Source: Candidatus Thiodictyon syntrophicum | Lineage (GTDB): Bacteria > Pseudomonadota > Gammaproteobacteria > Chromatiales > Chromatiaceae | Assembly (NCBI RefSeq): GCF_002813775.1 | Contig: NZ_CP020370.1 | Span: forward strand, 806,001 to 870,000 | DNA: 64,000 bases | Reading direction: 5' to 3' | Part shown: piece after piece, positions 9,910 through 49,305 of the stretch | How the letters are laid out: every line of letters starts with the position of its first letter | How positions within the stretch are numbered: position 1 is the stretch's first letter | Notes under the pieces: generated by a model | Seen by the model: the letters and a program-made list of their open reading frames with translations, nothing else | Told to the model about the DNA's origin: nothing | The model's database searches: none | Program-made: the position numbers and the translations under genes

Positions 9910-11117
9910 GCGCGGTGGCACCCCAGGCACGCCGTTCGAGTGTCGCGAGCCGGCGCCGCCGCAGCGAGCGACCGGCGGCCTTCGACCTCCCGCTCCTGAT
10001 GGCGGCCCTGGGGCTCTTGTCATTCGGGTTCGTGATGGTCGCCTCCGCCTCCATGACGATCGGCGACACCTGCTGCAAGGACCCCTTCTTCTTCGTCACG
10101 CGCCATACGCTCGCGATGGGTCTGGCCCTGGGCGCCGGTCTGCTGACCTTTACGGTTCCGGTCAGTTGGTGGGAACGCATGGGCGCCTGGTTCTTCCTGG
10201 GCACGGCGGGGATGCTGATCCTGGTGCTGATTCCGGGGATCGGTCACAACGTCAATGGGGCGACGCGCTGGATCCCCTTGGGGCCGCTCAATCTGCAGCC
10301 CTCGGAGTTCATGAAGCTGTTCGCAGTGATCTATATCGCGGGCTACCTGGTACGCCACGCTGATGATGTGGCCAACAAGCTCTCGGGCTTCATCCGGCCG
10401 ATGATCCTGATCGGACTGGCCGCCGCCCTGATCCTCAAACAACCGGACTTCGGTACCACCACCGTGATGCTGGCGACCGTGATGGGGCTCTTGTTCCTGG
10501 GGGGTGTGAGCGTCATGCCCTTCGCGGTCCTGTTCGGCACCGTGCTGGTCGGACTCACCTTCCTGGTCATGACCTCGGAATACCGCATGCGCCGCATCCT
10601 GTCCTTCCTCAACCCCTTCGAGGACCCCTTCAACTCCGGTTACCAGTTGAGCCAGGCCCTGATCGGCTTCGGACGGGGCGAGTGGCTGGGGGTCGGGCTC
10701 GGCAACGGCATCCAGAAGCAGTATTTCCTCCCCGAGGCCCACACGGACTTCATCGCCACGGTGATCGCCGAGGAACTGGGCCTGGTGGGGATGCTGGCGA
10801 TCATCGCCACCTTCGCCTTCATCGCCTGGCGCGCCTTCAGTATCGGTGCGCGCGCCCAGGCGGCCGGGAACCGCTTCGCCGCCTATACCGCCCAGGGGAT
10901 CGGTCTGTGGCTCGGCCTCCAGGCCTTCGTCAACATCGGGGTCAATTCGGGGATGCTGCCCACCAAGGGGCTGACGCTGCCCTTCCTGAGCTACGGCAGC
11001 AACAGTCTGATCGTGGTCTGTATGGCGATCGCCATCCTGCTGCGCATCGATGCCACCATTCGCCAGGACGAGGCGGAGTCCAGAAATCCCCGGGGGCTGC
11101 CATGGCTGCGTGCATAG
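9906..11117 (+). CDS. ftsW: Septal peptidoglycan glycosyltransferase FtsW
   Basis: 403 residues, SEDS family, about ten membrane segments, polymerising lipid II at the septum with FtsI. Signature regions are ASMTIGD near the first segment, NGATRWIPLGPLNLQPSEFMKLF, KQPDFGTTTVM, GYQLSQALIGFGRGEWLGVGLG, LPEAHTDFIATVIAEELGLVG and GLTLPFLSYGSNSL. ATG 9906 overlaps the murD stop; the end overlaps murG by 16 bp. Confidence 0.97.
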   Translation: MSAVAPQARRSSVASRRRRSERPAAFDLPLLMAALGLLSFGFVMVASASMTIGDTCCKDPFFFVTRHTLAMGLALGAGLLTFTVPVSWWERMGAWFFLGTAGMLILVLIPGIGHNVNGATRWIPLGPLNLQPSEFMKLFAVIYIAGYLVRHADDVANKLSGFIRPMILIGLAAALILKQPDFGTTTVMLATVMGLLFLGGVSVMPFAVLFGTVLVGLTFLVMTSEYRMRRILSFLNPFEDPFNSGYQLSQALIGFGRGEWLGVGLGNGIQKQYFLPEAHTDFIATVIAEELGLVGMLAIIATFAFIAWRAFSIGARAQAAGNRFAAYTAQGIGLWLGLQAFVNIGVNSGMLPTKGLTLPFLSYGSNSLIVVCMAIAILLRIDATIRQDEAESRNPRGLPWLRA

Positions 11118-12196
11118 GCGTCATGGCCGGCGGTACCGGCGGTCATGTCTTCCCCGCGCTGGCGGTGGCGCAGGCCCTGCGCGAGCGGGGTGCGCAGGTC
11201 TTCTGGATCGGCACGCACCGGGGGCTGGAGTCACGCCTGGTTCCCGAGCACGGGTTCGAGTTGGAGTGGGTGCGGATCGAGGGGCTGCGCGGCAAGGGGA
11301 TCACCGCGGTCCTGGCCGGACCGGTGCGTCTGCTGCGCGCCCTGTGGCAGGCGCGTGCGATCCTGCGCCGCCGCCGCCCCGCGGTGGTCCTGGGGATGGG
11401 CGGGTTCGTCTCCGGCCCCGGCGCACTGGCGGCTCGAGCCTTGGGGATGCCGCTCGTGATCCACGAGCAGAACTCGGTCCCGGGACTGACCAACCAATGG
11501 CTCGCACGCATCGCCAGTCGGGTCTTCGAGGCCTTTCCCGGCAGCTTTCCCACAGCGCGGCACGCGGTGGCGACCGGCAACCCGGTGCGTAGCGACATTA
11601 CACAACTGCCGCCGCCCGCGGAGCGCTTCGCCGGCCGCACCGGGCGGGCGCGGCTGTTGGTGCTCGGCGGTTCCCTGGGCGCCAAGGCGCTCAACGAGAC
11701 CCTGCCCCTGGCACTGGCCCGACTGCCCGAACCGTTGCGCCCGCAGGTCCGTCACCAGGCCGGTGAGCAGACCCTGGAACTGGCGCGGGCCGCCTATGCG
11801 CAGGCCGGAGTCCCGGCCGAGGTCAGCGCCTTCATCAAGGACATGGCGCAGGCCTATGCCTGGGCCGACCTGGTAGTGTGCCGGGCCGGTGCATTGACGG
11901 TCTCCGAACTGGCCGCGGCGGGTCTGGGCGCCATCCTGGTCCCCTATCCCCACGCGGTGGATGACCACCAGCGCGGCAACGCCCGTTTCCTGGCAGACCA
12001 CGGCGCGGCGCACCTGATCATCCAACGCGACCTGACCGCGCCCCTCCTGGCCGACCTGCTCGCCGCCCTGCTCGCCGACCGCGGACGGCTGCTGACCATG
12101 GCCCAGGCGGCCCGCGCCCGCGCCAATCCGGATGCGGTCACGCGCATTGCAGACGCCTGCCTGGAACTGGCAACGGGGGGAAAGGATGAGGGATGA
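11102..12196 (+). CDS. murG: UDP-GlcNAc–undecaprenyl-pyrophosphoryl-MurNAc-pentapeptide GlcNAc transferase
   Basis: 364 residues from ATG 11102. The frame is open for another 420 bp upstream, but that part lies within ftsW; MAACIGVMAGGTGGHVFPAL is the correct N-terminal GGTGGH motif. MurG adds GlcNAc to lipid I to make lipid II, membrane-associated on the cytoplasmic side. Also seen: GMGGFVSGPGALAA, IHEQNSVPGLTNQWLA, TGNPVRSDI, LLVLGGSLGAKALNE, CRAGALTVSELAAAGLGAI and PYPHAVDDHQRGNARFL. It ends in an unusual run of GGATGA-type repeats. Confidence 0.97.
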   Translation: MAACIGVMAGGTGGHVFPALAVAQALRERGAQVFWIGTHRGLESRLVPEHGFELEWVRIEGLRGKGITAVLAGPVRLLRALWQARAILRRRRPAVVLGMGGFVSGPGALAARALGMPLVIHEQNSVPGLTNQWLARIASRVFEAFPGSFPTARHAVATGNPVRSDITQLPPPAERFAGRTGRARLLVLGGSLGAKALNETLPLALARLPEPLRPQVRHQAGEQTLELARAAYAQAGVPAEVSAFIKDMAQAYAWADLVVCRAGALTVSELAAAGLGAILVPYPHAVDDHQRGNARFLADHGAAHLIIQRDLTAPLLADLLAALLADRGRLLTMAQAARARANPDAVTRIADACLELATGGKDEG

Positions 12197-12318
12197 AGGA
12201 TGAAGGATGAGGGATGAAGGAAGGGATTAGGGATTTGAGCATCTTAATACTACACGCCGAGGCTTCGCACTGAGACCAATTTCAACCTGTAACCTTCAAC
12301 CTTCATCCTTCATCCTTT
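12180..12318 (+). repeat. GGATGAA heptamer inverted repeat between murG and murC
   Basis: Tandem units of GGATGAA/GGATGAG at about 12184-12222 start at the end of murG. They are answered by CCTTCAACCTTCATCC and TTCATCCTT units at about 12294-12318. The loop is about 70 bp and AT-richer than the surroundings. The arms are mutually reverse-complementary, so a stem of around 25 bp is possible in the murG–murC spacer. The unit differs from the GTCGTT hairpins elsewhere in the cluster. Confidence 0.75.
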
Positions 12319-12323
12319 AGAAA

Positions 12324-13754
12324 ATGAATCCACATCTGAGCCACAGCGCCGCCAACATGGGCCGGGTCCGGCGCCTGCACTTTATCGGTGTGGGCGGGGC
12401 CGGGATGAGTGGGATCGCCGAGCTGATGGCCAACCTTGGCTACGAGGTCGCGGGGTCTGACCAGCGCGAGAGTACGACCACCCGGCGCCTGCGCGGCCTG
12501 GGGGTGCAGGTCTACATCGGGCACCGCGCCGGTCAGGTAACCGACGCGGATGCGGTCGTGGTATCCACCGCCATCGACGAGGCAAACCCCGAGATCCAAG
12601 AGGCCCGGGCGCGGCGAATTCCCGTCGTGCGCCGCGCCGAGATGCTCGCTGAACTGATGCGTTTCTATTATGGGGTCGCGGTCGCCGGGACCCATGGCAA
12701 GACCACCACCACCAGCCTGGTGGCGAGTGTGCTCGCGGAGGGCGGGCTCGATCCGACCTTCGTCATCGGCGGCCTGCTCAACAGCGCCGGGGCCAATGCC
12801 AAGCTCGGCACGACCAAGTACCTGGTGGCAGAGGCCGACGAGAGCGACGCCTCCTTCCTGTATCTCCAGCCCATGGTATCGATCGTCACCAACATCGACG
12901 CCGACCACATGCAGACCTACGGCAACGACTTCCAGCGCCTGCGCAACACCTTCATGGAGTTCATCCACCACCTGCCCTTCTATGGCCTGGCGGTACTGTG
13001 TATCGACGACCCGGAGGTGCGCGCCCTGGAGCCGCAGGTGCCGCGACCGGTGCGTACCTACGGCACCCGCCCGGAGGCGGACGTGCGCGCCGTGGACATC
13101 CGTCAGGACGGCCTGCGCATGTACTTCGAGGTCCACAGCCGCGAATTGAGTGCGCCCTTGCCCATCGAGCTCAACCTGCCCGGCCGCCACAACGTCCTCA
13201 ACGCCTTGGCCGCCATTGCGGTAGCCCTGGAGCTTGGGGTGGACGAGGAGGCGATCCGCCGTGCCCTGGCCGGCTTCCAGGGGGTGGGGCGGCGCTTCGT
13301 GGTCACACCGGTGCAGGATCAGACCGGCCGTCGGCTGACCCTGGTGGACGACTATGGTCACCACCCCCGGGAACTGGCCGCCACCCTGGAGGCGGCGCGC
13401 GGCGGCTGGCCCGGCCGGCGACTGGTGCTGGTCTTTCAGCCCCATCGTTTTACCCGTACCCAGGAGCAGTTCGAGGACTTCGTCCAGGTGCTCTCCACCG
13501 TCGACCTGCTGGTGCTCTGCGACGTCTATCCGGCCGGGGAGGCGCCGATCGCCGGTGCCGATGGGCGCTCGCTGAGCCGCGCGATCCGCGCCCGGGGCCT
13601 CCTGGACCCGGTGTTCGCCCAGGAGATCAATGAGATACCGGGGCTGCTCGGCAACCTCCTCCAGGATGGGGACCTGGTGCTCCTGTCCGGCGCGGGGGAC
13701 ATCGGCGCCCTGGCGGCGCGCCTGCCGGGGCTGCTCACGGGGGAAAAGACGTGA
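12324..13754 (+). CDS. murC: UDP-N-acetylmuramate–L-alanine ligase
   Basis: 476 residues from ATG 12324. It adds L-Ala to UDP-MurNAc, the first amino-acid step of the peptide stem. Seen: [17 protein letters not shown], the GSDQRES nucleotide region, the ATP loop [71 protein letters not shown] and FQPHRFTRT. The C-terminal end keeps [12 protein letters not shown]. It is separated from murB by 159 bp. Confidence 0.97.
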
Positions 13755-13913
13755 CGACGCCGCTTCTCGTAGTCCCCTTGATCCGGCGGCTGTCGATGGG
13801 CTGCGGTGAGCCGCTGCAGGGGTTCCCGCGGCGAGCGGCGGCGTCGGCACGCCCCGCGGGGCCGACGCCGGCGCCCGTGCGCCACGGCCTGCCCCAGCCG
13901 CGGGCCTGCCGCC

Positions 13914-14792
13914 ATGGGTGAACTGCGCGGGGAGTTGCGCACGGATGAGCCCCTGGCCCGCCATACCAGTTGGCGGGTCGGGGGCCCGGCGCGGCGGCTC
14001 TATCGACCGGCGGACGCGCACGACCTGGCGGAGTTTCTGCGTCGGCTTGACCCGGGCGAGCCGCTGCTCTGGCTCGGGCTCGGCAGCAACCTGCTGGTCC
14101 CGGATGCGGGTTTTCCCGGCACCGTGATCCTGACCCATGGGTGCCTGACGGGCCTGGAGCGCCGCGGGTCCGCGGGTGTTTACGCTCAGGCCGGCGCCAC
14201 CTGCGCCCGGGTGGCCCGCTTTGCCGCCCGCCATGACCTGGTCGGCGTTGAATTCCTGGCGGGTATCCCCGGTACCATGGGCGGGGCCTTGACGATGAAC
14301 GCCGGGGCCTGGGGCGGGGAGACCTGGACCCACGTCGGCCGGGTGCGCACCATCGATCGGACCGGCCTGGTGCGCGAGCGCACGCCGGCCGACTTCGACA
14401 TCGGCTACCGGGATGTGCGCGGCACCCCGGGCGAATGGTTTCTCGACGTGGAGCTTGAACTGCAACCGGGGGATGGGGCGGCCGCCATGACGCGGATGCG
14501 CGCCCTCCTGGACCAACGTGCCCGCACCCAGCCCACGGGGCTGCCGAGTTGCGGGTCGGTGTTCCGCAACCCGCCGGGGGACTACGCGGCCCGGCTGATC
14601 GAGTCGGTCGGACTCAAGGGCTACCGGATCGGCGGGGCTCAGGTCTCGGAAAAGCACGCGAATTTCATTATCAACACGGGCCCGGCCACGGCCCGGGACA
14701 TCGCCGGGTTGGTGGATCATGTGCGGTGCGAAGTCGAGCGCCACACCGGGGTGCGGCTGAAACCCGAGTACGTCAGTGTCGAAGTACGTTAG
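13914..14792 (+). CDS. murB: UDP-N-acetylenolpyruvoylglucosamine reductase
   Basis: 292 residues from ATG 13914 (MGELRGELRTDEPLARHTSW). The frame extends to 13806, but that extra stretch is Arg/Pro-rich and unlike the family. MurB reduces UDP-GlcNAc-enolpyruvate to UDP-MurNAc with NADPH and FAD. Seen: ARHTSWRVGGPARRL, GLGSNLLVPD, GIPGTMGGALTMNAGAWGGE, PSCGSVFRNPPGDYAARLIE and a C-terminal KHANFIINTGPATA. This is the short type I form. murB within dcw is normal outside the enterics. Confidence 0.95.
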   Translation: MGELRGELRTDEPLARHTSWRVGGPARRLYRPADAHDLAEFLRRLDPGEPLLWLGLGSNLLVPDAGFPGTVILTHGCLTGLERRGSAGVYAQAGATCARVARFAARHDLVGVEFLAGIPGTMGGALTMNAGAWGGETWTHVGRVRTIDRTGLVRERTPADFDIGYRDVRGTPGEWFLDVELELQPGDGAAAMTRMRALLDQRARTQPTGLPSCGSVFRNPPGDYAARLIESVGLKGYRIGGAQVSEKHANFIINTGPATARDIAGLVDHVRCEVERHTGVRLKPEYVSVEVR

Positions 14793-14864
14793 TACGGGAG
14801 TACGGACGGAGCGACGAGGCCCGTGAGCTACCTCTTAGTAACGAGTCAAGAACAAGTTAAGCGC

Positions 14865-14990
14865 TATCGTTGTCGTTGTCGTAATCGTAATCGGAGAAGC
14901 GATGCACTTCAGGGTGCGAGAGAATCCGGGGCGCTACGATAACCTCGATTACGACAACGACAACGATAACGATAACGACAACGACAACGA
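14865..14990 (+). repeat. Simple-sequence hairpin element, (GTCGTT)n arms, copy 2, loop inverted
   Basis: The 280-bp murB–ddl gap holds a left arm of TCGTTG units (14867-14885) and a right arm of ACGACAACGATA units (14951-14990). The loop between them (AGAAGCGATGCA, GGGTGCGAGAGAATCC, ACGATAACCTCGATTACG) is the reverse complement of the loop of the element at 7308-7417. The two copies are thus the same element in opposite orientations, or the loop has flipped between the arms. The rest of the gap shows no gene. Confidence 0.85.
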
Positions 14991-15018
14991 AAATGGCGCG
15001 ATAGGCAGTCCCTAGTGA

Positions 15019-17035
<2,017 letters not shown>

Positions 17036-37601: not shown

Positions 37602-39587
37602 GTGCCGAAAAAACCGTCCAAGACCACCCAGGCCAGGGGCCAGCAGCCCGAACCGGCACAACTCAAGGGCGTGGAGCGCCTGATCAAGGCCCGCGATTTC
37701 GCCTCGGCCAGCGCCCGGGCGCGCGCCCTGGTGCAGCGCTTCCCCGATCACTGCGGCGCCAACCGAATGCTGGTGGATGCCCTGTATCAGGCCGGCGGCC
37801 GGGGCGCGGCCACCCTGGCCGCCCACCAGTGGGCGCAGCGCCGGCCCAACAGCCGGGAGGCCCAGGAGGTGCTCTTCCAGCTCGCCATGGAGCGCGACTA
37901 TGCCCTGCTGGCATCCCGCGCCCTTGAACGCTTGACTGACCTGGGCGCCGCGACGGAACGCTTCCATGCCGAGCCTGCGGCCTTGGCCGAAGTGCTGCAA
38001 CAGCCCGACGGCTCCCAGGCGACCCTGGCGGACATGGAGCGTTTCGAGATCGGCAAGCTGCACCTGGAGGCCCAGGACTACGCCGGCGCCGCGCGTGAAT
38101 TGGCCGGCGTCGCCGTGACCCCCGCACGCAACAACCGGGTGCTCGCACTCTTCCATCTGGGGCGCAGCGCGGAGGCGCTGAGCGCCGCGCTCGACGCCTG
38201 GCAACTGGACCCGGGCAACCTCTTCGCCCTGGGTTGGGCCCTGCAACTGCGCCTGTATCGGGGCGATGAGGGCGGCGCCCGGGGGCTCGCCGTCCCCCTG
38301 GCCCAGGCGTCGGCACGGCGCATCGAGGATGCCCAGGCCCAACTCGGCGCCCTGCTCCTGATCTGGGAGGACCAGGCCGCCTGGGATGCCTTCGAGCGCA
38401 CCAACCAGGCCACTTGGATCGGTGAGGCGACGGGCACCCCGGAGGCCATGCGCCTCCTGTTCGGCGGAGGCGCCGCCAGCCGCCTTGGTCGCGGCGACCA
38501 GGCCCGGACCCTGTGGAAGCGCGCCCTGGACCGGCACCCGGGGCTCGCCTGCGCCGAGGAGAACCTTGCCGCCCTGAAACGCGATGGCGTGCCGCCCGCC
38601 TACCCGGCCCTGTTCGACCTGGGCCAGGTGATCCCCATCGGCGTGTTGGACAGGTTGCGCCAGGGCGGCGCCACGGGCCTCGACGCCCGGATCGACCAGT
38701 GGGGCATCAACGACGCCTATCTGGAGGCCATCTATCTGACCGGCGACGCGACCGTGCGCACCACCGTGACCTATCTGCTGCAACGCCGACTCGATCACGC
38801 GGCCCCGGCCGCCGCGGGGCCGAGCACCCGGCGGGCGGCGACCATCCTGCGCGACCTGGCCCGGCTGCCCATCGGCACCAGTCAGGAGCGTCTTGGCTTC
38901 CTCGACGCCCTGCGGAAACGCAAGTTGATCGCCGCGGGCGAGGCCGTCAAGTTCTGGGACGGTACGGCATTGCAGGAGGCCCAGTTGATCTCGACCGAGA
39001 TTACCCGGGAGCCCGTGCCGAGTGACCTTACCCCGGACCTCATGAGGCTGCATGGTGAGGCAGTGAACCATCTGCGGGCCGGTCGGCTCGAGGCGGCCGA
39101 GACCGCCATCAACACCATCCTGGCGCGCGCCCCGGACCAGCAGAGCGTCCTTGGCAACCTGGCGGCGCTGCGTGCCCGTCAGGGCCGGGGTGACGAGTGC
39201 CGGGACATCCTGCGCCGCGTGGTCGAGATCCACCCGGACTATCTGTTTGCCCGCTGCAACCTGGCCGGTCTGCTGATCGAAGAGGGCGACCTGGACGCGG
39301 CCAAGGCGCTGCTGGAGGGCCTCGCCGAACGGCCGCGGATGCACATCCAGGAGGCGTTTGCACTCTATGGCGTCATGGCCATGTTGAGCCGTGCCCAAGG
39401 TAATGATGCGGCCGCCGCCGGCCTCATCGCCAGCCTGGAGCAGATGGTGGAAGACGAGGACGACGAACAACTGCTGGCCATGGCCAAGGAGCGCGTGGCG
39501 CGGGCGACCAAGGGCGGGCGGCTCAAGGCGGCCCTCGGGTCCTTGGTCAGGGGTGCGGTGGGGGCGGGGCGGCCGAAGGGGGGGTAG
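37602..39587 (+). CDS. TPR-repeat protein, tandem copy 1
   Basis: 661 residues from GTG 37602, with GGAGGA 7 bp upstream. A basic N-terminus (MPKKPSKTTQARGQ) is followed by helical tetratricopeptide units throughout, e.g. AQLKGVERLIKARDFASASA, NNRVLALFHLGRSAEALSAA and VLGNLAALRARQGRGDECRD. No enzymatic domain, signal peptide or membrane segment is seen. It is followed 59 bp later by a close paralogue of identical length. Function unknown; TPR proteins usually scaffold partners. Confidence 0.75.
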   Translation: MPKKPSKTTQARGQQPEPAQLKGVERLIKARDFASASARARALVQRFPDHCGANRMLVDALYQAGGRGAATLAAHQWAQRRPNSREAQEVLFQLAMERDYALLASRALERLTDLGAATERFHAEPAALAEVLQQPDGSQATLADMERFEIGKLHLEAQDYAGAARELAGVAVTPARNNRVLALFHLGRSAEALSAALDAWQLDPGNLFALGWALQLRLYRGDEGGARGLAVPLAQASARRIEDAQAQLGALLLIWEDQAAWDAFERTNQATWIGEATGTPEAMRLLFGGGAASRLGRGDQARTLWKRALDRHPGLACAEENLAALKRDGVPPAYPALFDLGQVIPIGVLDRLRQGGATGLDARIDQWGINDAYLEAIYLTGDATVRTTVTYLLQRRLDHAAPAAAGPSTRRAATILRDLARLPIGTSQERLGFLDALRKRKLIAAGEAVKFWDGTALQEAQLISTEITREPVPSDLTPDLMRLHGEAVNHLRAGRLEAAETAINTILARAPDQQSVLGNLAALRARQGRGDECRDILRRVVEIHPDYLFARCNLAGLLIEEGDLDAAKALLEGLAERPRMHIQEAFALYGVMAMLSRAQGNDAAAAGLIASLEQMVEDEDDEQLLAMAKERVARATKGGRLKAALGSLVRGAVGAGRPKGG

Positions 39588-39646
39588 CCTGATTGAAAAT
39601 GTCGATGCAGCTTGCCCCCGCTCACTGTTAACCCGGAGGACCCGCG

Positions 39647-41632
39647 GTGCCGAAGAAACCGTCCAAGACCGACCAGGCCAAGGGCCGGCAGCCCGAGTCG
39701 GCCCAGCTCAAGGCCGTCGAGCGCCTGCTCGAGGCCAGGGATTTCACGCGGGCCGTTATGCGGGCGCGCGCCCTGGTGCAGCGCTTCCCCGATCACGGCG
39801 CCGCCAACCGGATGCTGGTGGAGGCCCTCGATCAGGCCGGGAGCGCGGGGGCGGCGACCCTGGCGGCCTACCAGTGGGCGCACCGTCGGCCCAACAGCCA
39901 GGCGGCCCAGGAGGCACTGGTCCAATTCGCCGGCGAGGGCGGATATCCCCTACTGGTAGTCCGGGCCGCCGACCGCTTGGCCGACCTGGGCGCCATCGCA
40001 GAACCTATCCCTGCCGACCCCGCAGTCTTGGACGGGCTGATGCAACAACCCGACGGCTCGCACGCGACCCGCGAGGATTTGGAGCGTGTTGAAATCGGGC
40101 AGATCTACATGGCTGTCGACGACTTCGCCGCGGCCGTGCGTGAACTGGACGGCGTCGCCACCACCCCCGCCCGTAACAACCGGGCGCTCGCCCTCTTCCA
40201 TTCGGGGCGCAGCGAAGAGGCACTCGCCGCCACCCTCGACGCCTGGCAACAGGACCCGGGCAACCTCTGCGCCCTCGGTTTGGCCCTGCAACTGCGGTTC
40301 TATCGCGGTGATGAGACCGGCGCCCGGGCACTCGCGGTCCCCTTGGCCCAGGCCCAGGCCCGGCGCGCCGAGGATGCCCAGGCCCAGCTCGGCGCCCTGC
40401 TCCTGATCCGGGAGGATCAGGCCGCCTGGGACGCCTTCGAGCGCAGCAACCAGGCCGACTGGAGCGATGCGGCGACCGGCGTCCCGGAGGCCATGCGGCT
40501 CCTGTTCGGCGCCGGCGCCGCCAGCCGGTTGGGGCGCGGCGACCAGGCCCGGGACCTGTGGCAGCGCGCCCTGGCCCAGCACCCGGGGCTCGCGTCCGCC
40601 CGTGAGAACCTTGCCATCCTAGAGCGCGATGGCGTACCGCCGCTCTTCCCGGCCTTGTTCGCGCTGGGCCGGGCCTTCCCCATGGGCGTTATGGGCCGGA
40701 TTCACGAGACCGGTGCCGCGGCCCTCGAGTCCCGAATCAACCGGCTGGGCATGAGCGATCACTATCTGGAGGCGCTCTACCTGACCGGCGACCTGACGGT
40801 AAGGGGACTCGCCGCATATCTTCTGCAACGGCGGCTGGGTCACGCGGTCCGGGCCCCGGCGGGACCGACCACTAGGCCAGCGGCCACCATCCTGCGCGAC
40901 CTGGCGCGGCTGCCCATCGGCACCATCCAGGAACGCCTCGGGTTCATCAACGCCCTGCGGCAACGCAAGCTGCTCGCAGCCAACGAGGCCGTCGAATGCT
41001 GGGACGGCACCGGGCTGCAGGAGGTCACGGTGTTCTCGACCGCGATCCATCGGGAGACGGTGTCGACCGGCCTTCCGACCAAGCTCCAGACCCGGCTCGA
41101 GGAATCCATGCTCCAGATGCGGGCGCACCTGTTCGAGGCGGCCGAGGCCAACCTCAACGCCATCCTGGCGCGCGTCCCTGACCACCCGACCGCCTTAGGC
41201 AACCTCGCGGCGCTGCGCGGCCAGCAGGGCCGGACCCGGGAGTGCCGTGACCTGCTGCGGCGGGTCATCGCCGCCCACCCGGACTATCTGTTCGCCCGCT
41301 GCAACCTGGCCAGTATCCTGATCCCAGCCGGCGAACTGGATGAGGCCCAGGGTTTGCTGGACGGGCTGGCCCAACGGCCGCGGCTGCACCTCCAGGAGGT
41401 CTTCGAACTCTATGGTGTCCTGGCGATGCTCAGCCGCGCCCGGGGGGATGAGCGGGCCGCCGCCACCCTCATCGCCAGCCTGGAGCAGTTGGCGGAGCAA
41501 CCGGGCGACGAGCGGTGGCTGGCCTTGGCCAAGGTCCGTGTGGAGCGGGCTTTACCGCAAGGGCGTATCAACTCAACCGTGAGTGCCTCGACCAAGGGTT
41601 CAGCGGGGGCGGGTCGGCCGAAGCGGCGGTAG
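39647..41632 (+). CDS. TPR-repeat protein, tandem copy 2
   Basis: 661 residues from GTG 39647, again preceded by GGAGGACCCGCG, the same leader as copy 1. It is colinear with copy 1 from MPKKPSKT to the C-terminal GAGRPK, with high identity in blocks such as ARALVQRFPDH, TPARNNR, RDLARLPIGT and HPDYLFARCNLA and more change elsewhere. A gene duplication including the ribosome-binding site is the simplest reading. The central PDHPTALGNLAALRGQQGRT is a clear TPR. Confidence 0.75.
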   Translation: MPKKPSKTDQAKGRQPESAQLKAVERLLEARDFTRAVMRARALVQRFPDHGAANRMLVEALDQAGSAGAATLAAYQWAHRRPNSQAAQEALVQFAGEGGYPLLVVRAADRLADLGAIAEPIPADPAVLDGLMQQPDGSHATREDLERVEIGQIYMAVDDFAAAVRELDGVATTPARNNRALALFHSGRSEEALAATLDAWQQDPGNLCALGLALQLRFYRGDETGARALAVPLAQAQARRAEDAQAQLGALLLIREDQAAWDAFERSNQADWSDAATGVPEAMRLLFGAGAASRLGRGDQARDLWQRALAQHPGLASARENLAILERDGVPPLFPALFALGRAFPMGVMGRIHETGAAALESRINRLGMSDHYLEALYLTGDLTVRGLAAYLLQRRLGHAVRAPAGPTTRPAATILRDLARLPIGTIQERLGFINALRQRKLLAANEAVECWDGTGLQEVTVFSTAIHRETVSTGLPTKLQTRLEESMLQMRAHLFEAAEANLNAILARVPDHPTALGNLAALRGQQGRTRECRDLLRRVIAAHPDYLFARCNLASILIPAGELDEAQGLLDGLAQRPRLHLQEVFELYGVLAMLSRARGDERAAATLIASLEQLAEQPGDERWLALAKVRVERALPQGRINSTVSASTKGSAGAGRPKRR

Positions 41633-41929
41633 CCAGTCACCGGGCGGCGGCTTGAGCCGAGGATGGAGGAACCCTGGCGTCGCCGCCGTTCGCCGCTTTC
41701 GGCGCGACACTTGATCTTGTTAGCGGAATGTGCGAATTTTCGAGTGACGGTGAAGGAATCCAGCGAGAACGGGATTGGGATGGTAAGCTGTTACCAACCC
41801 GATCCAGGCATCTCAGCGGGTCATAAAGTGACGTTGAGTTTGATCTGTATCTCGCCCGTTGTTGTCACGGTTAGGTGCTTCGGCGCTCCGGGCATCTTGG
41901 ATTTTTACTTTGAATGATTGGGAGCGTTC
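41633..41929. other. Gap between the TPR pair and the restriction-modification module
   Basis: 297 bp with a marked drop in GC after about 41700, matching the restriction genes that follow. An 84-codon frame at 41663-41917 has no recognisable protein features. Likely the left boundary of the inserted restriction-modification module plus its promoter. Confidence 0.4.
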
Positions 41930-42766
41930 GTGTCGATCGGAGAGGGGCGTTTACTTCAGTCGCACGGGCTCACTAGCCAAGTCTATGTACCGATCCTGAG
42001 AGCAATCTTCCAGGAGAAATACAGTGAAGGCTGCATTGCGATCGACTTCAGTCTCGACGATGTGCGAAGGGCCGCAGAGAAACTTGGGATCACTGCGCGA
42101 AACCCAGCCGATGTCGTCTACAGGATGCGCTCACGGACGGTCCTCCCAGCAGAGATCATTGCGTTGGGTTTCTACATCCTTCGTCAGGTTGGGCGTGGAA
42201 AATATCGTCTTGAGAAAGCAGTGAGCACGGTCATCGATCTTCCTGACACCAAACCGATTGAGGCGCTTGATCTCACGCCGATACCAGTCCGTCGACTGTT
42301 GCCCGAAGACTTGGCGGATGTCGATGAACAGGCACTCCTCACTGTCGCAAGCTATTGCAAGCTCTTCGATCACTTCACGGGACTGCGTATATACAGGCTG
42401 CGTTCGCACGTCCGAAAGAGTGTCGTCGGCATAGGCCAGGCAGAACTGGATGAGTTGGACGTGGGCGTGGCGTTTCGCGATGACGAAATACCCGTGGTCG
42501 TACCCATTGAGGCGAAGGCCGTGGCGGATCCCGTGAACCGCGTGCAAATATCAGCAATGGTCGCCTTTAGTGGGGATTACTTCCCGGATCACGAAGTCAG
42601 ACCACTTGCTCTCAAAGTCGATGAACGTGGTCTCATGCATATACTCGAGTTCAATGCTACGACTGAACCGAGCGACCTGATAGTGGTCCGATCAGCCTGC
42701 TATCGCTTGGTACTGTCTGAGAAGCAAAGAGAATTCATTCGTCACACACGTCCGGTGGTTCTTTGA
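41930..42766 (+). CDS. Putative type II restriction endonuclease
   Basis: 278 residues from GTG 41930, with GGGAG at 41920-41924; TTG 41918 is the alternative. A PD-(D/E)xK-like core is visible at LDVGVAFRDDEIPVVVPIEA followed by K (acidic residue, then E-x-K), with VQISAMVAFSGDYFPDHEV after it. Nothing else is recognisable, which is normal for restriction enzymes. The call depends mainly on the one-base overlap with a cytosine methyltransferase. GC content is lower than the flanks. Confidence 0.7.
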   Translation: MSIGEGRLLQSHGLTSQVYVPILRAIFQEKYSEGCIAIDFSLDDVRRAAEKLGITARNPADVVYRMRSRTVLPAEIIALGFYILRQVGRGKYRLEKAVSTVIDLPDTKPIEALDLTPIPVRRLLPEDLADVDEQALLTVASYCKLFDHFTGLRIYRLRSHVRKSVVGIGQAELDELDVGVAFRDDEIPVVVPIEAKAVADPVNRVQISAMVAFSGDYFPDHEVRPLALKVDERGLMHILEFNATTEPSDLIVVRSACYRLVLSEKQREFIRHTRPVVL

Positions 42767-43908
42767 TGGGTCGCCCCACTGCTATCGAGCTTTTCAGTGG
42801 CTGCGGAGGCATGAGCGCCGGGCTTCTCGACGCTGGTTATGACGTTCGTCTCGGCGTCGACCATGACCGGCCTAGTGTTGATGTATTCGAGTATAATCAT
42901 GCTTATCGCGGCAGTCACTCATTACTCGCTGACGTGGCCGCACTCAGCGGTCATGACTTGCTTTCAAGCGCCGGCATTGCATCCGTGGATCTTCTTGTCG
43001 GCGGCCCCCCATGCCAGCCATTTAGTATTGTCGGAAAGCGGCTTGGTCTCGCCGATCCGCGAGCACAGCTCATACAGGAGTATCTTCGCCTGATTTGCCA
43101 GACCAACCCGCGGGCCGTGATTTTTGAGAACGTGCCTTCATTAATCAGCGCTCATGATGGTGCGGTTATCGACGACATCGAAGCTCAACTCACCAGCATG
43201 GGTTACCGAGTTAAGTACGGAATTCTCAACGCAGCCGATTACGGAGTGCCGCAGAACCGGAAAAGACTGATCCTGGTCGCTATCAAGGGACGCTCGCGGT
43301 TCCCGTTCCCACCCGGTCCCACGCACGCAGCTATTCCTGATTTATTTCATGTTCCCTACGTTACATGCCGCGACGCCCTAAGCGATCTGCCCGATGTCGA
43401 GGAGCCAGCGGCAGCAGCCATTCCTAATCACGTTCGCACGGAGCACACGCCACGGATGACCGAAGCCTTCGCGCGCCTTGCGCCAGGAAAAAGGGATCCC
43501 GGTTCCTATCATGACAGACTACATCCTGACAGACCGGGGTACACGCTTCGCGCGGGAAGTGGTAACTTCTCGCCGCTTCGACCGGTCCACTATCTCTACA
43601 ACCGTGTTATATCGGTGCGGGAGAGTGCTCGCTTACAGGGCTTCTCTGATTCGTTTATTTGGCCCGATTCAATATCCCGCTTGCAGCAATACCGCCAGGT
43701 GGGAAATGCGGTGCCGCCACCGCTGGCTCGCGTTGTAGGTGCATTTATCGCTTACTTGCAGGGTTGGGCGTTGGATCCCGACGCGTCCCTTGGCAACCCC
43801 AATGACCGGCCGAACGGGCTGCTTCTCACTCCCGAAGAATTACGGGATCGCCGTATGCGGTACCATCGCGGAGGCGCAAGCTTTGGGAAACGCAAGGCCG
43901 AGGTATGA
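42766..43908 (+). CDS. DNA (cytosine-5-)-methyltransferase
   Basis: 380 residues from ATG 42766 (TTG 42763 possible). All main C5-methylase motifs are in order: I IELFSGCGGMSAGLLDAGYD, IV GGPPCQPFSIVGKRLGLADP with the catalytic Cys, VI FENVPSLISA, VIII YGVPQNRKRLILVAIKG, a target-recognition stretch (about 190-280), IX SARLQGFSDSFIW and X QVGNAVPPPLARVVGAFI. It protects host DNA from the paired endonuclease. Its 3' end overlaps the truncated ATPase gene on the other strand. Confidence 0.95.
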   Translation: MGRPTAIELFSGCGGMSAGLLDAGYDVRLGVDHDRPSVDVFEYNHAYRGSHSLLADVAALSGHDLLSSAGIASVDLLVGGPPCQPFSIVGKRLGLADPRAQLIQEYLRLICQTNPRAVIFENVPSLISAHDGAVIDDIEAQLTSMGYRVKYGILNAADYGVPQNRKRLILVAIKGRSRFPFPPGPTHAAIPDLFHVPYVTCRDALSDLPDVEEPAAAAIPNHVRTEHTPRMTEAFARLAPGKRDPGSYHDRLHPDRPGYTLRAGSGNFSPLRPVHYLYNRVISVRESARLQGFSDSFIWPDSISRLQQYRQVGNAVPPPLARVVGAFIAYLQGWALDPDASLGNPNDRPNGLLLTPEELRDRRMRYHRGGASFGKRKAEV

Positions 43909-44754
43909 ACGAGAACTCTTTGCGAGAAGGATGATCGTCGGAAGCCGCGGCTGGAGCAGCAAGGTGGTCATACAGATGAAACGCAGGGTGCCGTCGGAGA
44001 AGTCGCCGGCATCGAAGGTGTCGTCGCAGTCGCGGTGCCGCCAGCGCAACCGGATCTGCCGGGGGTTGTGCGGCTCTGGTTCGAGAACGAAGTCGAGAAA
44101 GAACGGCGCCACCCGTTGAATGGTTCTGACAATCAAGGCGTAGGCCGGGGTGTCGCGCAGGGCGCGCAGAAAGGCAGCTAAGTTGTCCGCCTGGGGAAGG
44201 AGGGCCGCTGTCTCGTCGATGCGGCCGGGCTGCTTGACTCTTGCGGATTCGCTCGTGTCATGGAAGTGGTAGACCTTCCAATCCCGCAGGTAGCCGACGA
44301 CATGGCCGCTCGCATCTTTGCTGTGCGGCTGGTCGGGTAGTGCCGATTCTCTGGCGCCGGGAGTTCCCAAGTGATAATTCTTGGTGCCTCCCGAATAGCC
44401 GATGGAGTAGCCGAAGAATTTGCATACTTCCTCTTTGAATAGCAGCCCTCCGGCCGCGTCCGGAGCCAATGTGACACTGTAGGCGTTCGGCGTAAAGTGC
44501 AGGTCGATCGTCAGTGCACTGGTTCGCTTGCGTCCAAGAAAGAGCAGCTTGTCCGCACCAAGCTGCTGGGCGACATGAAATTGCAGATTCTTGTTCAGTA
44601 GTTGGTTGACGAACCTGAACAGCCCGATGAAGTTCGACTTACCGGCGCCGTTGGCGCCGAGGAGGATGTTCAAGGGCTTCAGGCGCAAGTCGAGTCGCTC
44701 GATCGACTTGTAGCCTTCGACCTTTATTCGGTCCAGCTTTCCGAGATCGCCCAT
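43840..44754 (-). pseudogene. AAA ATPase of the RecF/SMC-like type, C-terminus lost
   Basis: From ATG at 44754: MGDLGKLDRIKVEGYKSIER, Walker A LLGANGAGKSNFIGLF, then YLRDWKVYHFHDTS and FDAGDFSDGTLRFICMTTLL, the ABC-type signature. Right after LPTIIL, where DEPELGLHP (Walker B) should come, the sequence becomes unrelated (LAKSSRSYLGLAFPK) and ends in the methylase 3' region. The break is at about 43927-43932. It is the last gene of the minus-strand ATPase operon and lost its Walker B when the restriction-modification DNA arrived. Confidence 0.8.
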
Positions 44755-44814
44755 GGTCAATTCTTCATCTTGGCTATGGCCGCAGTTGCGCGCCGGGGCC
44801 GCCGCTTGGCTACC

Positions 44815-46278
44815 CTACACCGGCGCAATGCCCCCCCTCCTTAACAGCTTCGCCGCGACCCGGAAGAGATCAGGCATGTCGAGACGACCGTCCTTACGTC
44901 GGAACATGACACCGATGCGTTCGAGGGCGACGAATAATTCATGCTCGCCCTGTCGCTCGGGGTCGGGGAATGGCGGCAGGTAGTTGTTTTCGGCATCGGC
45001 AATGAGCCGCTGCACGGTCAGCGCATTGCTCCAGACGTGATACACATCCTCCTCCACCCGCGGTAACAGCAGACCGGCAAGCGGGGCCAGCACCCCCTTG
45101 ATCCAGGGAAACTCCTGGTGCAACTGATCCACCCGGGTCTTGGATGCGGCACGCAGCCCGTGACGGATGCCCTCGGGGGTGATGACCCGGTCAACCGGCG
45201 GGGTGAGGTGACGGGCGGCAGCGATCATCATGCCGAGAAAACTGCGGGGCGTGACCTCTGCCCTAGCATCGCCCAGGTGCGTCATTGGCCAGTCGTAGGT
45301 ATTGCCTTTCTTATAGGCATAGGCACCCTGCCCCATGTAGGGTCCAGCGAGTGCCGTCATGAGCGTCTTCTGATCCGTGGGTATGTATGCCAAAGGCCAA
45401 CGGTGGGTAAGGATAGAATCCCGATTCCCCTGCGGGAGGTTATTCAACTGGAGCAGCGCCGCGAATGCAGTCCTAGCATCGTCGTCCGGGGCCAGCGCCA
45501 ACCGGGCGAAGAGCAGACCGTAGAGATCCCACGCGGTCCAATCGAGCCGAATGGCGCCGGTGCGCAGCTTCGGCAACTCCACGAAGCGCAGTGCATCGTC
45601 GTCGAGTTGATCCGGCCGCAGGAAGAGCTTGAGGCGGATCGCACGGTACGCGCGCATGGCCCACACCACCTCCAGCAGGGTCTCGGTCAGCAGGCGCCTC
45701 CTGGGCCAGGTCCGCGCCACGGTATCCAGGGCGTCGTAGACCACCAGCAGGCTCTTACCCGCGGCCCGCAGCCGGTTTTCATGGGCAAGGAGCTGATCTT
45801 CGCGGGCCTCGTAATCACGCGCCAGGTCCAAGAAGACGCTCGGTCGCGCGGTCTCATTGCCGGCAGAGCGATCCGCTGCACTCAGGATGGTGGCCCACCA
45901 AAACGCCTTTGCGTCGTCGTGGCTACCGTTCGGTGCAACGGCTTTGTCGATGGCATCCACCGACACGCCGTCGGGGCCGCCGATGCCCGTATAGCCAAAA
46001 CGGACCTCAATCCGGTCCAGCCCGAGCCTGGGATAGGCACGCGCTGCCGCCTCGCGGGTGTCTGACTGGAAGAGCACGCTGGCCCAGAAGCTCTTGCCGC
46101 TCCCGCGCGAGCCCAGAACGATGGGTGTCGCCGGGTCCAGGGCCGCGGCGTGGGTCTCCGGGGCATAGATCTCATCGAGTCTTGCCGCATTCGCGCCAAC
46201 CGCGTCGGCGGAGGCGTCCGGCGGGATCGCGGCGATGGCACTGCGGATGGCCTGGAAGGCGTCGGCGGGGAGGCTCAT
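44815..46278 (-). CDS. P-loop NTPase of the KGGVGR operon
   Basis: 487 residues. Walker A is at residues 56-63 (LGSRGSGKSFWAS) and a Walker B-like LLVVYDALDTVAR near residue 180. A possible sensor region (AIRLKLFLRPDQLDDDALRF) and a winged-helix-like end (ERIGVMFRRKDGRLDMPDLF) follow. It resembles orphan STAND/AAA-type ATPases of defence islands rather than any housekeeping enzyme. Its ATG overlaps the stop of the ParA-like gene (ATGA), so the two are co-translated. No effector domain is visible. Confidence 0.8.
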   Translation of the reverse strand: MSLPADAFQAIRSAIAAIPPDASADAVGANAARLDEIYAPETHAAALDPATPIVLGSRGSGKSFWASVLFQSDTREAAARAYPRLGLDRIEVRFGYTGIGGPDGVSVDAIDKAVAPNGSHDDAKAFWWATILSAADRSAGNETARPSVFLDLARDYEAREDQLLAHENRLRAAGKSLLVVYDALDTVARTWPRRRLLTETLLEVVWAMRAYRAIRLKLFLRPDQLDDDALRFVELPKLRTGAIRLDWTAWDLYGLLFARLALAPDDDARTAFAALLQLNNLPQGNRDSILTHRWPLAYIPTDQKTLMTALAGPYMGQGAYAYKKGNTYDWPMTHLGDARAEVTPRSFLGMMIAAARHLTPPVDRVITPEGIRHGLRAASKTRVDQLHQEFPWIKGVLAPLAGLLLPRVEEDVYHVWSNALTVQRLIADAENNYLPPFPDPERQGEHELFVALERIGVMFRRKDGRLDMPDLFRVAAKLLRRGGIAPV

Positions 46279-47723
46279 CCCACGTCCTCATTTTCGGGTG
46301 GCTCAGCGTCCGAGCGCCGCAGGGAACCGACTCCGATGCTCGGTGCGCCCGCCAGGACCGAATCCGAATCGACAGGTATCGTAATCGGCAGCGTGTCATG
46401 GATTTGGTCCAGCAACTGGCCGAAGGCCGGCCGATAGACCCGCTCAACCAGCAGATCCTGTCGCGCCTGCGGGTCGAAGCCGCGAAACCGGGGGTCATCG
46501 GCCACGGCCAGCGGTATCCGCGGTTGCCAATCTTCGTCCGGGAGCACGGCCGCATCTGGTGCCGTGTCGTCCCAGGGTATGTCACTGAAGGCGCCCACCA
46601 CTGGTAATTCCGGGTCCACCCGCAGCGGGGCTGGCCCGAGTCCGACGTCAGTAAACAGGGTCCGGCAACGCTCGGCGAATGCCGCAGCATCCAGGGTCTT
46701 CTGCATCTTGCCCTGGACCAGGGTGAGGCGGTCGAGCCATTCAGGCGCGCCCTGCGCCCGATCGACGAATCGCGCCAAATGGGACAACAGCACCTCGAAT
46801 CCCTGATACGTCTGCGGTTCATCGAGACCGAACAAGAACACCTCCGCGCCGAGCCCCAGGAGTGCCGCGGCGGTGGTCTCATGCAGCCCGGCGCGCGCGT
46901 CCACCAGGATCGCGTCGTAGCGGTGCGGATCGGCGAAGGCATCCACCAGTGCGCGGATCTGGTCGAGCAGCGTGGTCACCTGACCTTCAGGCCCGATGTC
47001 TTCTACATAGGCGCGCGCGATCTTGGCGAGCACATCCGCGGGGTGACTCAAGGATCGCCGACCTAGCACTGGAATGACATCGATCCGTCCGCGTCCGCCA
47101 GCCAACCCGGAGGGTCCGACCAGATCGGTCAGAAAGGTCGCGTCAAGTGGCGCAAGCCCGTTTTCCACCAAGGCGTCGAGCACGCCGAATTCAGGCAAGG
47201 TGCCCTCGTCCAAGAGCATCGGCCCCAGACCGGGTGCTTCCAGGTCTAGGTCGATTGTCAGCACGCGCAGGCCGCGAGCGGCCAAATCCGCGGCCGTGAC
47301 CGCAAGCGCCGTGGACCGGCCGACCCCGCCCTTCAGGCTCGCGAAGACGAAGCGCGGTGGCGGCGGCGCGGCCGGAAAGGGCGCGCGCAGCCAATCGGCG
47401 CCGACTAACCGACGATCCAGGAGTCGGACGCGGTAGGCCCCGGCGGTGACGGTCAGAGCGGCGGGGTCCGCCAGGATCGGCGTGACACCGTAGGCGTCAG
47501 CCCCGGCGGCGACCCGATCCGACCGTGCATAGGGCCCGAGGGCCAGGCGAAGCCGGTCCGAAAGGGTCTTGACAGCCGTCTCGTCCAACTCGGAATCGGC
47601 GAAAAAGCAGAGGCGCCCGGTCGTGTCGCGCAGAGCGACTCCCGCGGACAATGTCTCTTCGCCAAGCGCTTCCGCCACGACTCTCGCAAGGGTAGGGAGG
47701 CTATCGTCGAATCGAATCGTCAT
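46275..47723 (-). CDS. ParA/MinD-like ATPase with variant KGGVGR Walker A
   Basis: 482 residues. The N-terminal 120 residues are unassigned (TLARVVAEALGEETLSAGVA). The SIMIBI ATPase part starts at FVFASLKGGVGRSTALAVTA (deviant Walker A KGGVGRST at 131-138, Arg in place of the usual Lys/Thr context), followed by RVLTIDLDLEAPGLGPMLLD. YDAILVDARAGLHETTAAAL is the switch/Walker B region. ParA-like proteins pattern cargo on DNA or membranes; the KGGVGR variant occurs in poorly characterised accessory operons. It lies between the HEPN-like gene (9 bp) and the P-loop NTPase (overlap). Confidence 0.85.
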   Translation of the reverse strand: MTIRFDDSLPTLARVVAEALGEETLSAGVALRDTTGRLCFFADSELDETAVKTLSDRLRLALGPYARSDRVAAGADAYGVTPILADPAALTVTAGAYRVRLLDRRLVGADWLRAPFPAAPPPPRFVFASLKGGVGRSTALAVTAADLAARGLRVLTIDLDLEAPGLGPMLLDEGTLPEFGVLDALVENGLAPLDATFLTDLVGPSGLAGGRGRIDVIPVLGRRSLSHPADVLAKIARAYVEDIGPEGQVTTLLDQIRALVDAFADPHRYDAILVDARAGLHETTAAALLGLGAEVFLFGLDEPQTYQGFEVLLSHLARFVDRAQGAPEWLDRLTLVQGKMQKTLDAAAFAERCRTLFTDVGLGPAPLRVDPELPVVGAFSDIPWDDTAPDAAVLPDEDWQPRIPLAVADDPRFRGFDPQARQDLLVERVYRPAFGQLLDQIHDTLPITIPVDSDSVLAGAPSIGVGSLRRSDAEPPENEDVG

Positions 47724-47732
47724 GATCGGTCC

Positions 47733-48102
47733 TCAGGTGCCGATTGCGGCGACGGCATTACGTGCCTGTGTCTGCCAGGCGCTGATCCAGGAATCGTCGA
47801 TCTCGTTACCTTTGCAATAGCACATATCGGTATGCCAGTGCTCCATAAACGCCTGGTCCTCTATGAATCTCAAGAGTGGGCCGCCGCGGCGCCCCTGCAA
47901 ACGGTCGCGAACCATGGTGCGTAACCGCGGGAAGTGTTTGTAATATGCGTCGTCTGAGCGCTGTGCTTCAGGAAGCGCTCGCAGTCCCGCCTCGTCCATC
48001 ATCGCCTTGATGGCACACTCGGCCGCTATTCCGTAGAGGTAACCGGCTACACGCCGACAGGGCTCAGTGAAAAGCGCGTCGGCCGCAGCAAGGTGACGGT
48101 AG
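47733..48102 (-). pseudogene. HEPN-like small protein, first gene of the ATPase operon, interrupted by IS1-like element
   Basis: The body reads RHLAAADALFTEPCRRVAGY then LYGIAAECAIKAMM and ISAWQTQARNAVAAI, an all-helical pattern like HEPN or substrate-binding helical domains. The native start lies beyond the insertion: ATG at 49305 giving MTYTADYRSSAYRHLAAADA once one copy of the 8-bp duplication is removed. The rejoined gene would encode about 133 residues. The present frame can only start on a GTG contributed by the insertion-element end (48107). Confidence 0.75.
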
Positions 48103-49265
48103 GGCACTGGTTCAGTTTAATTCCTGTTTACAAGACATTGAAATATATGTAATATATCTAGTTCGGCGCGGGTTTCCGTCACTTTTTGAATAAGTGAGAA
48201 CTTCTTGAACGGACAATGGACATGCCCTCATTGCAATTCACAGAATTGTCGGCATCACAAGACGTATCAAACCGGTCATAACGGTACGCGTTTGCTGTGG
48301 CGATGTCAAAGTTGCAATAGGCTCTTTTCCGAGACCAAAGCCACCCTTATCGAGGGGCTCAGGAAACCGACCAGCTTCATCATTCAAGTGCTCAAAACGC
48401 GCACTGAGGGGATCGGCTTGAACGCCGCCTGCCGGGCCTTCGCGATTGCGAAGAATACGTTGCTCCTATGGGAGCGTCGCCTGGCCGATTGCAAGGATGT
48501 GCTGGTCATATATGCCCTGACGCACACCTTTATTGAGCAACTGATCGAAGGTGATGAGCTTTATACGAAAGTGAATAGGAATGTCCCCCCGGAGGATTGT
48601 GAAGGCTGGACGATCGTACTGATGGAAAGGGCAAGTCGATTTATCTGGGCGCTTCAGTGCGGGAAAAAGGATCGCAGCCTATTTTCATATGCCATACAAA
48701 TACTTAGAGATGTCATCCTGCGTACTGGCGATGTCACTCTAGTCACCGACGGGGAACGTCGGTATGGCAATCTCCTGTTTGAAATTTGCCACGAAGTATT
48801 GCGAACCGGAAAACGCGGCCGCCCACCGAAAGTGCTTCGTCGCGGTGTGAAGGTGCGCCTTAAGAATAAAGGGAAAGGAACTGATAGAACGGGGCACTCG
48901 CGTCCCAAATACGAAACCCCTCATCCGGAGCATCCAGAAACCGATCAAGATGTGACGCCAGCCGATATTCATGCTAATCATTTGGAAGCATCGAACGCTT
49001 CATTTCGGCGAAAGAATTCTGCTTATCGCCGCCGAACGAATACGTACGCGAAGAGCATTTCTGGTTTGCAAAGAACATTGGATATGTTGTGGATTGTCCA
49101 TAACTTTATTCGCAGCCACTTCACGACAAAACAGGTTCCTGCGGTGGCTCTGGGGATTCTCCAGCAGGGACTCTCGTGGGATGAGGTCCTTAGAGTTCGA
49201 CAGCCCAGGTTATAAAAATACTACAAAAACATAAGGATAAGGAAGAACCAAACTGAACCAGTGCC
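48103..49265 (+). mobile_element. IS1-like insertion sequence, complete
   Basis: 1163 bp. Perfect 16-bp terminal inverted repeats GGCACTGGTTCAGTTT at 48103-48118 and its complement at 49250-49265. An exact 8-bp target duplication GACGGTAG flanks it at 48095-48102 and 49266-49273. It carries one transposase gene and is AT-richer than the host. The clean ends and exact duplication argue for a fairly recent insertion. Confidence 0.95.
48205..49215 (+). CDS. IS1-family-like transposase
   Basis: 336 residues from a TTG start (a stop lies just upstream in frame). An N-terminal zinc-finger CPHCNSQNCRHHKTYQTGHN then WRCQSCNRLFSETK is followed by a helix-turn-helix (AFAIAKNTLLLWERRL). The DDE domain follows: EGDELYTKVNR, LVTDGERRYGNL and NHLEASNASFRRKNSAYRRR. 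This matches the long single-frame IS1 subgroup, in which no programmed frameshift is needed. It looks intact. Confidence 0.9.
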   Translation: MNGQWTCPHCNSQNCRHHKTYQTGHNGTRLLWRCQSCNRLFSETKATLIEGLRKPTSFIIQVLKTRTEGIGLNAACRAFAIAKNTLLLWERRLADCKDVLVIYALTHTFIEQLIEGDELYTKVNRNVPPEDCEGWTIVLMERASRFIWALQCGKKDRSLFSYAIQILRDVILRTGDVTLVTDGERRYGNLLFEICHEVLRTGKRGRPPKVLRRGVKVRLKNKGKGTDRTGHSRPKYETPHPEHPETDQDVTPADIHANHLEASNASFRRKNSAYRRRTNTYAKSISGLQRTLDMLWIVHNFIRSHFTTKQVPAVALGILQQGLSWDEVLRVRQPRL

Positions 49266-49305
49266 GACGGTAGGCTGAGCTTCGATAATCTGCGGTGTAC
49301 GTCAT
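49266..49305 (-). pseudogene. Severed 5' end of the HEPN-like gene
   Basis: Read leftward from ATG at 49305 this encodes MTYTADYRSSAYR and runs straight into the IS right end. The frame continues exactly in the 47733-48102 piece when one target-duplication copy is removed. Confidence 0.75.

Follow-up and report, generated by a model that had tools for sequence, protein, structure and literature searches.

PDC-M28 is reportedly a candidate of PADLOC-DB v2 that stems from the 'guilt-by-embedding' set of Payne et al. 2024. Most of these guilt-by-embedding candidates (PDCs) await validation, and some embedded HEC candidates, HEC-06 among them, are antiviral, according to the accessible part of a 2026 paper (PMC12988326). 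AbiV, a protein of lactococcal abortive infection, is thought to inhibit translation generally (PMC3231927, available text). Here we analyse a stretch of 64,000 nucleotides from Candidatus Thiodictyon syntrophicum (contig NZ_CP020370.1, positions 806,001 to 870,000; hereafter the window), in which four minus-strand genes lie in the order A-B-C-D. We find that A, B and C are a decaying copy of PDC-M28, a real, widespread and co-inherited defence candidate already present in PADLOC, and that D is a separate neighbour.

Results

All three genes of the trio match PADLOC models of one system, namely PDC-M28A (A, E = 2.2e-23), PDC-M28B (B, E = 3.8e-93) and PDC-M28C (C, E = 2.6e-114), so that their identity as PDC-M28 is near certain. 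They are mutually adjacent and arranged as in their relatives. Gene A is followed after 9 bp by B (46275..47723), B overlaps C (44815..46278) by 4 bp (ATGA), and 60 bp separate the stop codon of C from the ATG of D. The coordinates, the junctions and the KGGVGRST loop of B had all been given in an initial annotation and were found again. That annotation had also called the system possibly undescribed and matched it to none it could name; the matches to PDC-M28 overturn this, and the four genes were not found together at any other locus searched. The accessible portions of three papers (PMC12137116, PMC13092281 and PMC10853773) do not mention the trio.

We analysed the best 80 of 202 confirmed loci from a single scan of genome contigs with a profile of C, using longest open reading frame (ORF) calls; one locus (L108) apparently lies on the same contig as another (L031), and two more (L113 and L114) look alike. 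B precedes C in 76 of the 77 loci with room for it, and A is present in 65 of 68. The three that miss A comprise two with broken A remnants (L056, L058) and one with neither A nor B (L052). Within the same class, PDC-M28C is matched in 11 of 369 genomes, weakly in three. Since ParA proteins match B at E 0.001 in 368 of the 369 genomes and in all 14 controls, B could not serve as a marker at that threshold and its places were counted only above 150 bits. At the ten strong C places, which lie in 8 class genomes and include two in the genome studied here, B adjoins C in every case, although G330 retains only a B remnant. Pairwise distance matrices of 65 trios correlated with r = 0.95 (B-C), 0.87 (A-B) and 0.86 (A-C), values that none of 999 permutations reached and that still contain the effect of shared descent. 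The tree of C carries labels of ten phyla, which are intermixed. Among the nearest relatives, at 64-69% identity, are purple sulfur bacteria. A-B-C is unbroken in Thiohalocapsa (L008), Thiocystis (L009), Allochromatium palmeri (L012, about 8199-11467) and Thiosymbion (L013), and in Lamprocystis (L014) A and B are broken. A second, unbroken trio was found in the genome of Candidatus Thiodictyon syntrophicum itself (L003 8300-11569, on the 417-kb contig C2). That is, the trio recurs, is inherited together and is self-contained without D.

The trio also occurs on mobile DNA. C is present on 18 of 72,556 PLSDB plasmid records; all four plasmids examined carry the full trio, and in three of these an integrase lies nearby. 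Searching the 80 genome loci with the three plasmid integrases gave a single match, in what is an insensitive search. Among loci on viral contigs, eight of nine hold A, B and C, and the ninth is a fragment. A blastn search with Enterobacter trio DNA found no copies in E. coli, a search that would miss divergent copies.

B carries the sequence KGGVGRST and scores 170.8 bits (cut-off 90) with NF047398, the 'KGGVGR-motif variant AAA ATPase' family, in agreement with its first description as a KGGVGR ParA-like ATPase. The deviant Walker A motif of ParA/MinD ATPases is KGGxGK[ST]. B does not fit this pattern and belongs with the variant family instead, as its Walker-position Lys is replaced by Arg, in the midst of ParA-type matches that surround the P-loop. 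KGGVGR[ST] was present in 76 of 79 B proteins, and the other three showed no motif. When the proteins of the window were searched against PHROGs, B matched a ParA family, and A and D gave weak matches. The kinship of B with ParA, together with the plasmid, integrase and viral-contig records above, would also suit a module in which B and C do the work of maintaining a plasmid or element, or of addiction, with A as regulator or antitoxin-like partner and phage defence as incidental. The Arg at the Walker position of nearly all B proteins speaks against such a role, as do the pattern of gene loss and the genomic siting described below, and we regard it as unlikely.

The identification of C as a P-loop ATPase was confirmed by a Walker A motif in all 80 relatives, 61 of which read DALD at Walker B and 73 of which have KxFxRP. 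NACHT proteins are marked by a small residue that follows the Asp of Walker B. With a set of 60 (59 of the 80 C proteins and that of the window, which together form the profile of the relatives) and an E limit of 10, members matched AAA_16 (34, best E = 2.2e-7), NACHT (19, best E = 1.1e-4), AAA_33 (13) and AAA_22 (12), whereas the C protein of the window itself matched none of them. Its match to the Sll1717 ATPase family of NCBIfam is weak (46 bits, cut-off 75). A PDB search with C returned three weak matches, the best of them ribosome recycling factor, outside the NTPase part. In literature searches, KGGVGR retrieved only a mushroom-lectin review and Sll1717 no paper.

A is a protein of about 134 amino acids. 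From 72 A proteins, 9 incomplete ones were set aside, and of the 63 kept, 60 entered the profile. Invariant in all 63 are, among others, R13, G36, E40, K44, H68, W101, R106 and Y107. At an E limit of 10, 19 of 60 relatives matched PF05168 (best E = 1.3e-4) and 16 matched HEPN_AbiV (best E = 2.7e-5), with two matches for the next family. These matches are weak, but they agree with the earlier reading of A as HEPN-like. The RX4-6H motif proposed at the same time fared differently: a His four to six residues past the invariant Arg is found in 2 of the 63 proteins. Its absence from the others makes ribonuclease activity of A doubtful, and A as an RX4-6H ribonuclease was rejected. An Arg at this distance ahead of the invariant His occurs in 18 of 63, and R-x4-6-H anywhere in the protein in 52 of 63, at positions that are not conserved. 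In the part of PMC3710099 available, Anantharaman et al. describe some PF05168 and AbiV proteins that lack RX4-6H yet keep another His; by analogy, H68 of A could correspond to this alternative residue. Searching the own genome with HEPN_AbiV gave no match, and as the controls were equally silent, the result is uninformative. Two long ORFs (L042, L046) were considered as fusions of the A domain and set aside, as by eye they look like starts called too far upstream.

In the window, A has been hit twice. First, an IS1-like insertion sequence (IS; 48103..49265, plus strand) splits it into a 5' end of 13 codons and one base (49266..49305, minus strand, ATG at 49305), recognized by translation beyond the IS, and the remainder that matches PDC-M28A (47733..48107, minus strand). 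The IS is 1163 bp long, has imperfect inverted repeats of about 23 bp, and is bordered by an 8-bp target duplication, GACGGTAG, at 48095-48102 and 49266-49273. Its transposase is a single ORF of 336 amino acids (48205-49215) and scores 44.7 bits with the IS1 model NF033558, below the cut-off of 100. At least 34 full-length copies exist in the genome, 28 of which share the top identical score (40 of 50 candidates scored), pointing to a recent burst of the element. As the IS end contributes an in-frame GTG at 48107, A loses only about 11 residues; by eye, no well-placed ribosome site precedes this GTG. Second, and independently of the IS, a TGC codon (47822-47820, minus strand) encodes Cys at the position of R106 in L012, an Arg in 64 of 64 relatives. 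B and C are still open frames.

Broken genes were counted where the sequence before C extends for at least 2.2 kb (A) or 1.6 kb (B); C was left out of the comparison because the loci had been found through it. Stops, shifts or deletions disrupt A in 8 of 67 loci and B in 3 of 76. The damage is confined to A in five of them (L043, L045, L058, L059, L075), and the window is a sixth such case. Both genes are broken in three (L014 and L016, which are near-copies, and L056), and B alone in none. If breaks fell in proportion to gene length, B being about three times longer, the five A-only loci would have P = 7e-4, or 1.7e-4 once the window, which had motivated the count, is included. This concentration of breakage on A fits a role of A as a costly effector, and runs against the maintenance role considered above, in which B and C would do the work. 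Single ORFs that match both A and B were seen at L056:9423-9974 and L090:1817-2479; they lack the W..RY motif of A and the P-loop of B, and look like deletions that left the beginning of A joined to the final part of B.

The second trio of the genome sits between a two-part pglX and brxC/pglY-pglZ, that is, within a BREX locus. BREX genes also flank the trio in 6 of the 80 loci (L053, L061, L062, L064, L085, L086). Those of L062, L064 and L086 resemble the genes of L003, L062 and L064 being typed only by similarity to L003 proteins; L053 and L061 carry brxL, and L085 has upstream BREX pieces only. In L053, the trio slightly overlaps both the preceding pglX and the pglZ that follows, the latter in its longest frame. 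PglZ exceeds its cut-off in 19 of the 369 class genomes (57 at E 0.001). Based on 19/369, 10 kb and an assumed genome of 2.9 Mb, six BREX loci among 80 have a chance probability of 9e-15, or about 1e-14, a rough figure, since the 80 loci extend beyond the class and are not independent. This repeated siting is a further point against a maintenance function. The pglX of the own copy (L003:12201-16357) is divided over two frames (13880-16357 and 12201-13376), with about 500 bp between them; as L062 has a similar two-part pglX, the split may be natural. PglZ was found at four places in the genome, three on C1 and one on C2, and several BREX or PglZ loci may be present.

A closer tie to BREX can also be considered, in which the trio would be an accessory that detects when BREX fails and serves solely as a backup for it. 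In L003, L053, L061, L062 and L086 the trio runs in the same direction as its neighbours, pglX on one side and brxC/pglZ on the other, mostly with little space between the genes, and a 2026 BREX survey proposes, in its accessible part, backup effectors in BREX loci, HEPN included (PMC12839542). Yet 74 of the 80 loci have no match to the eight BREX query proteins, which came from two loci and were searched in many short flanks, and other copies adjoin Dpd, type III methyltransferase, DrmD or housekeeping genes. With BREX beside 6 of 80 trios, the trio is no core BREX component. In L064 it points opposite to the BREX genes. On the C tree, the BREX label needs five changes (gains or losses), so the link does not look ancestral; as few changes were seen in 7 of 500 shuffles, which makes the label somewhat clustered. 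Taken together, a function confined to BREX backup seems quite improbable.

Beyond BREX, ten large neighbours, chosen for their size, were typed: six match PADLOC at 1e-15 and four do not. The six are DpdF twice and DpdE once (L022, L031, L057), a type III methyltransferase (L050) and DrmD with AbiU (L012). Together with the BREX cases, this supports the earlier suggestion of a defence neighbourhood, for some of the loci. The wider scans covered 104 of 156 called downstream genes, which matched 137 PADLOC families, and 112 of 173 called upstream genes, which matched 90; Pfam families were tallied for the upstream set only.

At the other end of the trio, D (43840..44760, minus strand) is an AAA_21 ATPase that scores best with another PADLOC candidate, HEC-01A (E = 1.4e-88, model positions 4-274 of 363). 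It reads '...LPTIILL' and then its homology ends, near 43923, where seven relatives have their Walker B (for example 'ILLDEPELGLHP' in L100). D is cut at this motif and everything beyond is lost; no 3' remnant was found at 36-44 kb of the window. The calculated end lies about 15 bp from the stop codon (43908) of a C5-cytosine DNA methyltransferase (42763..43908, plus strand; PF00145, E = 7.5e-63), which forms a type II restriction-modification (R-M) module with a putative restriction enzyme (41918..42766, plus strand; REase_II of PADLOC, E = 1.9e-36). Damage at both ends of the gene group, by the IS in A and by the R-M module abutting D, had been described before and stands. Upstream of the module lies a gene for a 661-amino-acid protein (39647-41632). 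An off-frame ORF (39391-40092) resembles by eye an ORF inside it (41340-41582) and hints at an upstream tandem paralogue.

The initial annotation had joined D to the trio as one possibly undescribed four-gene defence operon. D does lie on the same strand, 60 bp behind C. But it was found at none of the 80 other genome loci, 62 of which extend 1.2 kb or more past C, nor at the plasmid, class and viral trio loci, nor near any of the closest relatives of the trio; among trio loci, only that of the window has it. Walker B-bearing relatives of D were seen in 7 of 273 other genomes of the class, and the only one of these that also has C (G089) carries the two on different contigs. As D moreover scores as a different candidate, the quartet can be given almost no weight: D and the R-M module are neighbours separate from the trio, and the conserved module does not include D. 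At L101-L106, D-type ATPases are often directly followed by an ORF of about 140-300 amino acids, a possible partner gene.

Discussion

The best explanation of these findings is that the chromosomal A-B-C of the window is a PDC-M28 copy in decay, and that this mobile module of three genes most likely serves abortive-infection (toxin-like) defence; we put the probability of this reading at about 55%. A defence function of the trio is likely in its own right, and for its parts we infer that A is the effector, with B and C as its gate and sensor. Infection would be sensed by the STAND-like NTPase C and the ParA/MinD-like ATPase B, in which Arg stands for the Walker Lys, and these two would also restrain the small HEPN protein A. 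Once activated, A would act, probably on RNA or on translation as proposed for AbiV, and halt phage growth at the cost of the cell.

Several observations weigh against this explanation. No match was found among 50,697 phage records. The HEPN assignment is weak, with the first A member at 19.6 bits (cut-off 22), no sequence relatives of A in PDB at E up to 10, and, in 61 of 63 A proteins, no His placed for RX4-6H behind the invariant Arg. Among the matches listed for the neighbours, without a random-gene control, no PADLOC family recurs in more than two, and housekeeping families are found in the upstream Pfam tally. The five A-only loci outside the window are all metagenome-assembled genomes, where sequence error is possible, although random error should hit the longer B more than A. 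No publication that names or tests PDC-M28 was found in a search that did not cover supplements, and tests of two other candidates, PDC-M63AB and PDC-S04, revealed no defence, according to the available text of PMC12409345.

A bolder version of the abortive-infection model can be offered tentatively. PDC-M28 might be a three-part immune switch of new design, in which the HEPN effector is held jointly by C as STAND-like sensor and by B as nucleotide-locked pseudo-ParA, and A might block translation through a non-standard active site (H68, W101, R106, Y107). It could then be a recurrent suicide backup within BREX and other defence loci, and inactivation would for this reason strike the effector first.

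What had been found of a trio labelled in ten phyla was only a database name. New are its anatomy, the removal of D from the module, its repeated siting in BREX loci including an unbroken copy in the own genome, and the breakage biased towards A. The anatomy leads to a testable model of effector, switch and sensor, and within one genome a copy in decay can be set beside an unbroken one embedded in BREX.

Compared with known systems, the window copy is closest to PDC-M28: A, B and C match its models, adjacent and in order, and it differs in that A is interrupted and lacks the invariant Arg, unlike in the unbroken second copy. HEC-01A, an Hma-embedded candidate, is related to D over model positions 4-274 of 363, but D lacks Walker B and all that follows, and no link of D to the trio was seen. 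AbiV and PF05168 proteins resemble A in that A relatives match both profiles weakly, and their members can do without RX4-6H and have an alternative conserved His (PMC3710099, in the part available); AbiV differs as a single protein of 201 amino acids (PMC3231927, available text), whereas A has about 134 and is accompanied by two NTPases. In pairs of HEPN (MAE_18760 family) and ParA/Soj, postulated toxin-antitoxin systems, a HEPN gene likewise lies beside a ParA-like ATPase gene, but the HEPN protein there keeps RX4-6H, and the accessible sections of PMC3710099 mention no third, STAND-like gene. Conflict systems with VMAP and AP-ATPases share a predicted-inactive MinD/ParA-like domain tied to STAND-type ATPases (PMC7159879, in the portion available); that domain is part of larger proteins, whereas B is a gene of its own beside a HEPN gene.

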